A stretch of 64,000 nucleotides of DNA from an uncultured Eudoraea sp. (GTDB lineage: Bacteria > Bacteroidota > Bacteroidia > Flavobacteriales > Flavobacteriaceae). Position 1 is the first letter of the stretch. Each line of letters starts with the position of its first letter. The notes under the pieces were generated by a model that was given only the letters and a program-made list of their open reading frames with translations, had not been told where the DNA came from and did no database searches. Below, in pieces: positions 37,506 to 43,044 of the stretch. Location of the stretch: positions 1-64,000 of the forward strand of contig CAMYJF010000005.1 in the NCBI GenBank assembly GCA_947258555.1, given 5' to 3'. The position numbers and the translations under genes were made by a program.

Positions 37506-37900
37506 GGGGCCGACTGGTTTTGACAGCGAGACCAATGGCTATGTAAGCATGCCGAGCGCTGAGATACAGCTCGTAAATATCATATTTCATCTTTTAAATG
37601 GCGAATCTAATTACGCTCTTGCCGCATAATCCGAATTATAGTAGGATCATGCCTCGTCTCTGCTAGGCAGAGAAGCGAGATGTCCCTTGGAAGCCCTTGT
37701 TGGCGGCGTCTAAATTAGGGGCACCATAAATGTCAACATAGAATAACTGAAGCTTCGGCAGTTGTTCAAAACTTAAGAAGCTAAGTGCGTAGTATGCGGT
37801 TTTTGGTGAGTTACGCACCGACAATTAAACAAAAACTAAGCATGTAGAAAGCATAGGTATTTCTTGTTTGGACGGGAGTTCGAATCTCCCCGGCTCCACC
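37506..37900 (+). ncRNA. ssrA: Transfer-messenger RNA (tmRNA)
   Basis: The 5' end GGGGCCGACUGGUUUUGACAG and 3' end GGACGGGAGTTCGAATCTCC.. CGGCTCC form the alanyl acceptor stem (GGGGCCG pairs with CGGCTCC) and T-arm. The tag frame reads GGC GAA TCT AAT TAC GCT CTT GCC GCA TAA at 37600-37629, i.e. GESNYALAA preceded by the tRNA-borne Ala. A strong helix CTCTGC-TAG-GCAGAG follows the tag. The genome encodes discriminator A plus CC but T follows, so the final A of CCA must be added enzymatically. Rescues stalled ribosomes and tags the peptide for proteolysis. Confidence 0.97.
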
Positions 37901-37903
37901 TTC

Positions 37904-37942
37904 GCCCGCCGAAGCTCGAGAAACTCGAGAGCGAAGGCGGGC
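37904..37942. repeat. Compound hairpin H1 (REP-like), abutting tmRNA 3' end
   Basis: Outer stem GCCCGCC (37904-37910) with GGCGGGC (37936-37942); internal loop GAA (37911-37913) opposite GAA (37933-37935); inner stem CTCGAG with CTCGAG around an AAA loop. It begins 4 nt after the tmRNA sequence ends and could also act as terminator, though only a weak T-rich stretch follows. Confidence 0.8.
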
Positions 37943-38016
37943 TTATTAATTTTAGTGCTTCACAATATCATAATCCCAACAGCGGGCTTGCGCCTCCGCT
38001 AAAGCTTCAGCGACAC

Positions 38017-38046
38017 GCGGACGGTGGACACGTCCACCACATCCGC
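38017..38046. repeat. Nested palindrome GCGGA..GGTGGAC-AC-GTCCACC..TCCGC
   Basis: GGTGGAC (38023-38029) pairs with GTCCACC (38032-38038); flanking GCGGA (38017-38021) can pair with TCCGC (38042-38046). The right arm overlaps the left outer arm of the next hairpin, so the two structures are mutually exclusive. Confidence 0.65.
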
Positions 38047-38079
38047 CGAAGCTTTTGTACAACAAAAGCGAAGGCGGGC
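38043..38079. repeat. Compound hairpin H2, second copy of the H1 architecture
   Basis: Outer CCGCC (38043-38047) with GGCGG (38073-38077), internal loop GAA / GAA (38048-38050 and 38070-38072), inner stem GCTTTTGT / ACAAAAGC with an ACA loop. The outer stem, internal loops and right flank (GCGAAGGCGGGCTT) equal those of H1 while the inner stem differs on both arms, keeping pairing. Confidence 0.8.
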
Positions 38080-38086
38080 TTTCTAT

Positions 38087-38121
38087 ATCCTCCATAGCCA
38101 TTTTTAATGGCGACGGAGGAT
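38087..38121. repeat. Compound hairpin H3
   Basis: Outer ATCCTCC / GGAGGAT (7 bp), 3x3 internal loop ATA / GAC, inner GCCATT / AATGGC with a TTT triloop. Same layout as H1 and H2 (outer stem, three-by-three loop, inner stem, triloop) but unrelated sequence. Confidence 0.7.
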
Positions 38122-38247
38122 TATTTAATTACCAACCTTAAAGATTCTGACAATCAAGTTGTTGGGCTTCGGTGGATATAGATCCAATTCTCAAATTCAT
38201 TTTTAGGCTATGAACAGAAATTACGGGTAATAAGGCTATTCTTATTT

Positions 38248-38493
38248 ATGAATTTAATCTATTCGGTATATATATTGAAGTGCTCGAACGGGCAATTCTA
38301 TACAGGATATTCACGTAACCTACCTTCCAGACTACTCGCACATAATAATGGTGAAATCCATTTCACCAAAGACAAACTTCCCGTCAGTCTCATTCATGTT
38401 TCATATTTTCAAAAGAAGCAATTGGCTTATGATTTTGAACGCTATTTAAAATCCGGATCAGGTAGGGCATTTATGAAAAGGCACCTGATTTGA
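38248..38493 (+). CDS. Stand-alone GIY-YIG nuclease domain protein
   Basis: 81 residues forming one GIY-YIG domain of the YhbQ/UPF0213-like type. VYIL (7-10) stands for GIY, YTGYS (18-22) for YIG; Arg28 in LPSRLLAHN and Glu64 in FERYLKSG are the expected catalytic residues, and the family end motif KSGSGRAF is present. No DNA-binding appendage. It is surrounded by hairpins on both sides and has no operon partner. Related small GIY-YIG proteins are common and often multicopy in flavobacteria; role uncertain (repair, homing-type mobility or repeat processing). Confidence 0.88.
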   Translation: MNLIYSVYILKCSNGQFYTGYSRNLPSRLLAHNNGEIHFTKDKLPVSLIHVSYFQKKQLAYDFERYLKSGSGRAFMKRHLI

Positions 38494-38540
38494 AGGATCT
38501 GCAGGACTGTAGCTATGGTGATCACCGAACGCAGTGAGGT

Positions 38541-38591
38541 AATCTCCTTTATCGATATCAGAATTCCTGCCAAGGTAAACTTGAGGAGATT
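38541..38591 (+). terminator. Long-loop hairpin with T-run after GIY-YIG gene
   Basis: AATCTCCT (38541-38548) pairs with AGGAGATT (38584-38591), followed by TTTTGTTTTT. The 35-nt loop is long for a terminator but may fold further. It may end GIY-YIG transcripts. Confidence 0.45.
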
Positions 38592-38604
38592 TTTTGTTTT
38601 TCAG

Positions 38605-38633
38605 ACACCTGGACCGCAGGTACAGCCAGGTGT
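38605..38633. repeat. Hairpin ACACCTGG-n13-CCAGGTGT
   Basis: 8-bp perfect stem (38605-38612 with 38626-38633), directly followed by the second copy of the 11-bp direct repeat. Confidence 0.65.
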
Positions 38634-38670
38634 ATCTGCAGGACCGGAGAACAGCAGCATAAATGAATTC

Positions 38671-38694
38671 TTATCCGGAAACCTGAACGGATAA
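38671..38694. repeat. Hairpin TTATCCG-n10-CGGATAA
   Basis: 7-bp perfect inverted repeat in the gap before the methyltransferase gene, 94 bp upstream of its ATG. Could be an operator or part of the repeat cluster. Confidence 0.5.
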
Positions 38695-38787
38695 AATGCT
38701 ATCTTAGATCGTATATGACGAGTTAGCAACCAGTTGATAAACTTAAAGATGATTTAATCTATAAGAATATTCAATACAAAATTAAGT

Positions 38788-39601: not shown

Positions 39602-39869
39602 AGTAGGGTTTTCTTTTTATATGATACTTTTAATTGGCAAATTGACTCAACTGTAAGGCTTTTATTTCACTATTAGGATAAATAGTTTGACTGGGGAGTG
39701 TATAGAAATCGAGACAAATGGATATGCATGAATCAGTTGCTAACAAAACAATGGCTATAATTCAGCTTTCCTCTTGAACAAATCAAAAAACCATAACTTT
39801 AAAAACGGTAGGATTCCGAACTTGGGAAATCCTAACGGATTTGCCGTGTTCTCTTATCGGGGTTTCCCT

Positions 39870-41652: not shown

Positions 41653-43044
41653 TTGTACTGCATCGTCGACATAGAGACCACCGGAAACGGGATCGTAGGG
41701 AATAAGATCACCGAGATCGCCATATTTAAACATGATGGGGAGCAGGTGATCGATGAATACCACAGCCTGGTGAATCCGCAATGTGAGATTCCTTACTTTA
41801 TAACAGGCCTCACAGGGATAGATAATCAGATGGTACGAAATTCGCCATTGATCTCTGATATCGCATCTGAAATTCACGACTTTACACAAGACCAGATCTT
41901 TGTCGCGCATAGCGTGAATTTTGATTACAATGTGATCAAGCACGAACTGAAAGGCCTGGGACAAAGCTATGTCCGAAAGAAACTCTGCACGGTGCGCTTA
42001 TCAAGGAAACTATTCCCCGGTTTTAACTCCTATAGCCTGGGCAAACTCTGTTCCTCCCTTGAGATCCCTTTGTACGACAGGCACCGGGCTCGTGGCGATG
42101 CTCAGGCAACCGTGCTCTTATTTGAAAAGATCTTAGGTTCTGAGAGCTCTGAAGAAGTGATAAAGACCTTCCTCAATGCCCGCTCCCAGGAAGCCACACT
42201 GCCACCCCTTCTATCGAGGGAAATCTATGAAGAATTACCTTCCTCTCCGGGAATCTATTATTTCAAAAATGCATCCGGTGAGATCATTTATGTAGGCAAG
42301 GCTAAGAATATCCAGAAACGCGTACTCGGGCATTTCTATGATAAGAGTACGAAAGAAGTACGCATGTGTCGGGAAACGGCTCAGATCGATCACGAGGAAT
42401 CAGGTAGCGAATTACTGGCTCTGCTTATGGAAACCGCTGCCATCAAACATCATTTTCCCTTGTATAACAGCGCTCAAAAAGGCTTTTTAAGACAGTATGC
42501 GCTATTCTCTTATGAGGACCGAAATGGCATTAAACACCTGGCTTATAATTCTTTGAAAAATGTATCTGCGCCTTTGATCATATTTACGACCACTACGGAT
42601 TGCCGATTATTCATGGAACAGGTCTGCCTAGAATTCGATCTCTGCCCGAAATATTGCCATTTACAGGAAAACGTGTCATCCTGCAATCATTTTCGGATCA
42701 GCTGCAAAGGGGTCTGCCGTGAAGATGAAAATATAACCGAATACAATTTAAGAGTGGATCAGGCCGTCTCTTATATGAAAGCAGGGCAAGAAGATCTCCT
42801 TATTCGCACCAAAGGCAGAAATTTTGATGAATACGGATTTGCTTACTTGAGCGAAGGATCGTTTAAAGGATATGGATATATTCCAGCTGAAATAGCTGTA
42901 AAACACCTGGATGATCTTGAACCTTACCTGATCGCCCAGCGGGATACCCCCGAAGCAAGGCGCTATATGTATTCCCATGCGGTGAAATATCCTGATGCCG
43001 TAGTTGACCTTGCCCTTCAGTCATCAGAAACTTCAGGGGATTAG
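41653..43044 (+). CDS. DnaQ-like exonuclease fused to a GIY-YIG nuclease domain
   Basis: 463 residues. No ATG is available between the upstream in-frame stop (41626) and the conserved first residues, so TTG at 41653 is the likely start (YCIVDIETTG). The DEDD 3'-5' exonuclease domain covers about 1-165 (DIETTG; VAHSVNFDYNVI; HRARGDAQAT). A UvrC-like GIY-YIG domain follows (SSPGIYYFKNASGEIIYVGKAKNIQKRV, about 195-222). The C-terminal third is uncharacterised, with a Cys-rich patch (CPKYCH...CNHF..SCKGVC). The family is annotated as Pol III epsilon / UvrC-like and is presumed to act in DNA repair; it is not the replicative epsilon subunit. Confidence 0.88.
   Translation: MYCIVDIETTGNGIVGNKITEIAIFKHDGEQVIDEYHSLVNPQCEIPYFITGLTGIDNQMVRNSPLISDIASEIHDFTQDQIFVAHSVNFDYNVIKHELKGLGQSYVRKKLCTVRLSRKLFPGFNSYSLGKLCSSLEIPLYDRHRARGDAQATVLLFEKILGSESSEEVIKTFLNARSQEATLPPLLSREIYEELPSSPGIYYFKNASGEIIYVGKAKNIQKRVLGHFYDKSTKEVRMCRETAQIDHEESGSELLALLMETAAIKHHFPLYNSAQKGFLRQYALFSYEDRNGIKHLAYNSLKNVSAPLIIFTTTTDCRLFMEQVCLEFDLCPKYCHLQENVSSCNHFRISCKGVCREDENITEYNLRVDQAVSYMKAGQEDLLIRTKGRNFDEYGFAYLSEGSFKGYGYIPAEIAVKHLDDLEPYLIAQRDTPEARRYMYSHAVKYPDAVVDLALQSSETSGD

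Follow-up and report, generated by a model that had tools for sequence, protein, structure and literature searches.

The window analysed here is a stretch of 64,000 nucleotides from an uncultured Eudoraea sp. (contig CAMYJF010000005.1), in which a tmRNA gene on the forward strand (37506..37900 by ARAGORN; 37506-37901 by Rfam RF00023) is followed on the same strand by a series of hairpins and a small GIY-YIG nuclease gene. The tmRNA gene, the host target in the reading developed below, ends in TCCACC (37895-37900), here termed the target end T, and the left hairpin module sets in at the C75/A76 position of the tmRNA, directly after this motif. The module is repeated and partly degenerate, in the order A1-B1-A2-A3-B2. 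A1 (37904..37942), which begins at the tmRNA end, and A2 (38043..38079), which follows the tmRNA-end copy of B1, are compound palindromes with a GAA/GAA internal loop and the common pattern CCGCC-GAA-GC..GC-GAA-GGCGGGC, in which the inner stems differ yet pair. A3 (38087..38121) is a compound palindrome of the form ATCCTCC-ATA..GAC-GGAGGAT. The hairpin B1 (38023..38038, GGTGGA-CACG-TCCACC) consists of an inverted tmRNA end (T') and then a restored tmRNA end (T), and B2 (38164..38187, GGGCTTCGGTGGAT-ATAG-ATCCA) is a degenerate hairpin. Folded as single-stranded DNA, A1, A2, A3 and B2 are more stable than dinucleotide shuffles, with z scores of -2.5, -4.5, -5.5 and -2.3, respectively. The nuclease gene (38248..38493) encodes 81 aa, and a further hairpin, CACCTGG..CCAGGTG, lies 3' of it at about 38604-38632. 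A preliminary description of this DNA had already reported the three A palindromes (A1 and A2 with a shared outer stem, GAA loops and covarying inner stems, A3 with this layout in other sequence), as well as the 81-residue gene and further hairpins behind it, and it proved accurate; the tmRNA-end copy in B1, the onset at C75/A76 and seven other small GIY-YIG genes in the genome are points beyond it.

The 81-aa product matches the Pfam GIY-YIG family (PF01541, E=2.4e-13) and bears the family signature ERYLKSGSGRAFMKRHL. Across a family alignment of 32 members, Y8, Y18, G20 and E64 are invariant and R28 is conserved in at least 90%; the window protein keeps the invariant Tyr, Tyr and Glu, and it has the domain with catalytic Tyr/Tyr/Arg/Glu that defines the GIY-YIG superfamily. 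NCBIfam and PHROGs hold no family matching the window protein, and the closest relatives with a solved structure are UPF0213 proteins; the fold as such is beyond question. Further along the window (41653-43044), a 463-aa protein has a PF01541 match in its middle, after an N-terminal exonuclease-like region, and probably comes from a conventional repair gene that has no bearing on the element discussed here.

In a same-genus genome (G002), island-like repeats come next after the tmRNA gene, then a tmRNA-end copy, a lone hairpin A and a TPR gene, which is found at 39841 in the window and adjoins hairpin A directly in G002; hairpin B, the GIY-YIG gene and the methyltransferase gene are absent from this tmRNA locus. 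The repeats between tmRNA and hairpin A in G002 are homologous to an island-like segment behind the nuclease gene in the window (38497..38665, +), which may be a right end in decay or what is left of an island. Island remnants blur the right side of the window copy, where nothing in a search for a right-hand tmRNA copy matched the tmRNA tail directly at a significant level. Because such a copy is undetectable, the window locus is probably an old or truncated element copy. Island-like motifs of the form GGGATCA..TAATCCC were considered as the element's own right end and dropped for tmRNA loci, since relatives without a GIY-YIG gene also have them.

The hairpins might also be plain tmRNA terminators that happen to lie beside an unrelated GIY-YIG gene. 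A T-run follows hairpin A in G002 as well as at L024, L025 and L088, and for this reason hairpin A may end tmRNA transcription as a side role. As a full account of the locus, however, we consider the terminator reading next to negligible: 28 of the 30 family tmRNA loci that were read have unrelated DNA, mostly a terminator, directly 3' of the tmRNA, which does not fit a plain ssrA terminator, and the architecture recurs together with GIY-YIG genes at tRNA-Ser, -Met, -Val, -Glu and others.

Several further observations concern the surroundings of tmRNA genes. Many of the family tmRNA genes (L065-L094 and L193) are trailed by island-like remnants with no GIY-YIG gene, in which modified T-arm copies carry a mini-palindrome, ACC-N-GGT, in the T loop; these are possibly non-autonomous relatives or integrase att remnants. 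At L062 (2094-2500) and L097, the A-B palindrome module is tandemly repeated behind the tmRNA, and each A comes after a tmRNA-end copy supplied by the B before it, as though B renewed the insertion target. Upstream of the methyltransferase gene in the window (38670-38735) there is a short repeat, CCGGAAACCTGAAGGGATAAAATGCTATCTTAGGT..TATAACGAGTT, which precedes other, unrelated genes in two same-genus genomes (L194, L195 and L196) and seems to mark gene cassettes that can move; the methyltransferase gene itself is found at a different locus in G001, in DNA that is 94% identical.

Across the source genome, the exact hairpin pattern occurs in four copies, two in the window and two at C2:78002/78103 that have no GIY-YIG gene, and hairpin A was therefore rejected as a high-copy exact repeat. 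The preliminary description had named, as an outcome speaking against it, one or two copies with no link to GIY-YIG genes in relatives; the copy number is indeed low, but relatives show a strong link to GIY-YIG genes. PF01541 has 12 matches in the genome, eight of which are small free-standing genes. Behind each of tmRNA, tRNA-Asn and tRNA-His there is one of these small genes, and most of the remaining ones are flanked by palindromic repeats of their own kind. The repeat GTCGAGCGGAGTCGAGA has 17 genome copies and brackets the two GIY-YIG paralogues of C47 and C7, with five copies within about 150 bp of these genes and opposite orientation on the two sides, while 8 of the 14 copies of CTTCGACTGCGCTCAG surround the GIY-YIG gene at C17:3469. 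Within a 389-kb sample, selected so as to contain repeat-flanked GIY-YIG loci, every repeat family is centred on its own GIY-YIG gene. The bracketed non-tRNA genes (C47:8928-9349, C7:129020-129387 and C17:2910-3810) combine repeats of opposite orientation on each side with a few dispersed copies.

The GIY-YIG loci of the family share with REP/RAYT systems (REPINs) the mismatched-loop compound palindromes, the inverted pairs bracketing a nuclease gene and the dispersed copies. Unlike in REP/RAYT, the nuclease is a GIY-YIG rather than an HUH-Y1 enzyme, and tRNA genes are targeted. Searches of the genome for a Y1/RAYT transposase (HUH-Y1, PF01797; also TnpA) gave no matches, with positive controls, so REP/RAYT, which the preliminary description had brought in, can serve as an analogy only, and the non-tRNA GIY-YIG loci of the source genome are a RAYT-free REP-like system. 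The proposed tie between palindromes and GIY-YIG genes itself holds, both in the repeat families around the genes of this genome and in relatives, although a link to tRNA and tmRNA ends had been overlooked.

This link emerged from a scan of a genome collection with the window protein as query, which recovered 41 loci from Bacteroidota, Patescibacteria, WOR-3 and Edwardsbacteria; the family therefore extends well past the flavobacteria to which it had first been assigned. Most of these 41 loci lie directly behind a tRNA, frequently tRNA-Ser. We combined them with 29 top-scoring and 40 lower-scoring loci from 296 Bacteroidota genomes into a set of 110, picked on protein similarity alone with tRNA position ignored. 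A tRNA or tmRNA lies within 700 nt of 79 of the 110 GIY-YIG genes, as against 0.95% of random positions, and all 79 linked genes are on the strand of their tRNA or tmRNA. Two types can be distinguished, a 3'-type behind the tRNA and a 5'-type immediately in front of it. About 30% of the 110 loci have no adjacent tRNA, and on the protein tree some of them, which have REP-like repeats, fall into a clade of their own. Some genomes contain ten or more small GIY-YIG genes.

The palindromes of the family are alike in architecture and not in sequence. The rule read at the tRNA 3' end is an outer stem of 5-6 bp with C-G as its closing pair, then an internal loop of 3 nt, T[TA]C on each side, which reads GWA on the opposite strand (TWC/GWA), and an inner stem. 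Among 18 distinct outer stems, five of the six pairs show compensatory changes and the closing C-G is constant. The architecture of A1 recurs at tRNA ends: in 31 of 62 3'-type loci a compound palindrome starts no more than 7 nt from the tRNA 3' end, compared with 0.07 expected from dinucleotide shuffles, and the other half of the 3'-type loci fail the strict rule. In one form the tRNA end serves as the left arm and is followed by an inverted and then a restored copy (e.g. TCCGCC-TTC-P-TTC-GGCGGA-CAAAG-TCCGC), and B1 of the window is this restored-copy form with a tmRNA end. In 14 of the 62 loci the restored copy agrees with the tRNA of that very locus, versus 1.9% of cross pairs. At loci with both ends intact, the two end palindromes were judged by inspection to have opposite loop types, i.e. 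to stand in inverted sense (e.g. L030, L058, L111, L113, L116 and L121).

Many units also carry a copy of part of their own tRNA. Behind the ORF, 19 of 61 3'-type loci repeat the 3' part of their tRNA exactly or nearly so (0.6% of cross pairs), and the first ~21 nt or more of the tRNA lie in front of the ORF in 15 of 20 5'-type loci (1.7% of cross pairs). The half copies are typically broken in the T loop (TTC^GAATCC) or the D loop (GGATA^GAGC), with a palindrome at the break in 14 of 19 and 7 of 15 cases, respectively, against about 2 each in shuffles. Just upstream of one tRNA-Leu (L125 1440-1514, and L220) there is a pseudo-tRNA 5' half with a palindrome (CCTGTCTGCCGACAGGCAGG), and the same tRNA-Leu bears a 3'-type array, so that one tRNA has seemingly been hit on both sides.

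In several genomes the units occur in near-identical tandem arrays, each unit containing part of the tRNA. Two arrays lie behind tRNA-Leu, one of 5.3 units of 450 bp and one of 3.2 units of 345 bp; a tRNA-Ser is preceded by 3.1 units of 323 bp, and a tRNA-Met (G230) is followed by five units of about 365 bp. The array units may have arisen by unequal recombination rather than by repeated insertion. Their size bears on the possibility that the nuclease is a passenger of tRNA-targeting islands, i.e. cargo or a remnant left where a tyrosine integrase inserted at the T loop. Such islands resemble the present units in the direct copy of the tRNA 3' end, the regenerated tRNA and the capacity for tandem arrays; the T-loop breakpoints are similar to att sites, family tmRNA 3' ends bear island-like remnants with modified T-arm copies, and L024 and L025 have island-like segments between tmRNA and hairpin A. 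Units of 323-450 bp, however, are far smaller than integrase islands and have room solely for the GIY-YIG ORF, with no integrase gene between the duplicated tRNA ends. They have palindromes of fixed loop type at both ends, placed in the T and D loops, and all tRNA-linked GIY-YIG genes are on the tRNA strand. The mirrored 5' class, in turn, reproduces the 5' end of the tRNA as far as the D loop, which is unusual for integrases. We regard an island passenger as unlikely.

Comparisons among congeners reveal both filled and empty sites. The tRNA-Met array of G230 is missing at the same locus in 18 congeners, and in the closest empty one (91-92% identical upstream) the tRNA terminator is followed by the array-flanking sequence, so that the empty site is joined on both sides. 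At one tRNA-Leu locus, three congeners are filled and three are empty, and filled and empty genomes differ at 1-2 of the first 40 nt of the tRNA and at 16 of the last 45 nt, which indicates that the 3' half of the tRNA-Leu was exchanged or changed in concert in the filled genomes. The filled and empty genomes may be sister clades, in which case the change could be a single event not caused by the element. The right flank of this array (G295) has no homology to the empty congeners, and its empty site is for that reason not joined on both sides. The coexistence of filled and empty alleles at one site is a property of free-standing homing endonucleases.

A phage gene offers a precedent here. SegB, a free-standing GIY-YIG homing endonuclease of T-even phages, strongly co-localises with tRNAs of many isotypes and promotes tandem amplification of tRNA together with its own gene in phage T6 (PMC13096335), and it sets a precedent for a tRNA-linked GIY-YIG enzyme that drives tandem amplification. 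The units described here are likewise free-standing, linked to tRNAs of many isotypes and tandemly amplified, but their genes, of ~80 aa, lie in cellular chromosomes and are accompanied by compound palindromes, which are absent from the description of SegB, and by tRNA-half copies. Local amplification of this kind, in which a cut in the tRNA leads recombination to multiply tRNA and nuclease with no defined element, would fit L131, where the whole tRNA-Ser is duplicated along with each GIY-YIG gene. We nevertheless find it very improbable as a general explanation, given the presence and absence at orthologous sites (i.e. spread to empty sites), the many tRNA isotypes that serve as targets and the defined palindromic ends.

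The distribution of the family among congeners is patchy. The protein tree, which is based on a short alignment and leaves many forks unresolved, needs 28 changes of tRNA isotype, and this suggests repeated target switching of the elements; some subclades are constant in target, among them a tmRNA clade of Flavobacteriaceae to which the window belongs (support 99). A phage or plasmid vehicle was considered and rejected, as no relatives were found in viral contigs and the plasmid search returned one weak match.

The enzyme might alternatively serve the host, trimming single-stranded DNA (e.g. incoming DNA in transformation) at cognate repeats, with the tRNA linkage a matter of expression only. 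The model would be Neisseria Ssn/NTS, in which the cognate repeats are dispersed sites modulating transformation; the Ssn enzymes, site-specific single-strand nucleases, are members of UPF0213 (COG2827). The nearest solved structures of our family are UPF0213 proteins, its non-tRNA members in this genome have dispersed cognate repeats, and by description both groups pair a small GIY-YIG enzyme with enzyme-cognate genomic repeats. The description of Ssn, unlike the present units, is without tRNA-end insertion or tRNA-half copies, and such copies, together with the tandem arrays, the empty sites and the patchiness among congeners, point to a mobile element. We therefore give a host-serving nuclease only a small probability.

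Instead, we think it likely that there is a minimal, homing-like mobile element whose targets are tRNA and tmRNA gene ends, and that the window locus represents an old or truncated copy of it. In a complete unit of 320-450 bp, the host tRNA would be intact, with a compound palindrome at the tRNA 3' end; the GIY-YIG ORF would follow on the tRNA strand, then another compound palindrome, inverted relative to the first, and finally a copy of the tRNA 3' part. In the mirror-image class, the unit would lie upstream of the tRNA with the tRNA 5' part. On this reading, the nuclease may drive insertion by acting on the palindromes: it would nick or cut a palindrome or a tRNA-arm hairpin, probably in single-stranded form. 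Starting from an element copy, repair or homing would then set a unit beside the tRNA, with co-conversion of the adjacent tRNA half. Since the tRNA would be regenerated, insertion would be cheap and the target would survive, leaving a unit able to insert or recombine again, which could yield tandem arrays. The promoter of the tRNA or tmRNA probably drives the ORF as well.

The T'-T hairpin B is perhaps a guide complementary to the target end; T' is complementary to this end in 14 of 62 loci. A possible analogue is found in IS200/IS605 elements, which have subterminal hairpins and short guides pairing with the target (PMC6006769), although the present units differ from these in their nuclease, the lack of TnpA, the use of a tRNA end as target and the copying of a tRNA half. 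More broadly, and tentatively, we propose a new class of minimal transposable elements, in which a GIY-YIG enzyme, using compound palindromes and a guide hairpin complementary to the target, would insert ~0.4 kb units at tRNA and tmRNA ends across phyla. A replacement tRNA half would be carried along or copied in the process, so that tRNA genes would be rewritten, and the class would be a GIY-YIG counterpart of IS200/IS605 and REP/RAYT. The family is widespread across phyla and apparently undescribed: in the open-access literature searched, outside of which most subscription papers fall, there was no description of tRNA-end GIY-YIG elements and nothing that connects GIY-YIG enzymes to REP or to cellular tRNA ends.

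The genomes of Bacteroidota and candidate phyla commonly contain small GIY-YIG genes whose role is unclear. If the proposal is true, many of these genes would be selfish elements parasitising tRNA and tmRNA genes, bacterial palindromic repeat families that lack a RAYT would be explained, and tRNA genes would have a route by which to gain foreign halves. The family would also be a source of tiny nucleases with readable target rules, and the tRNA-Met array provides a direct system for catching such movement.
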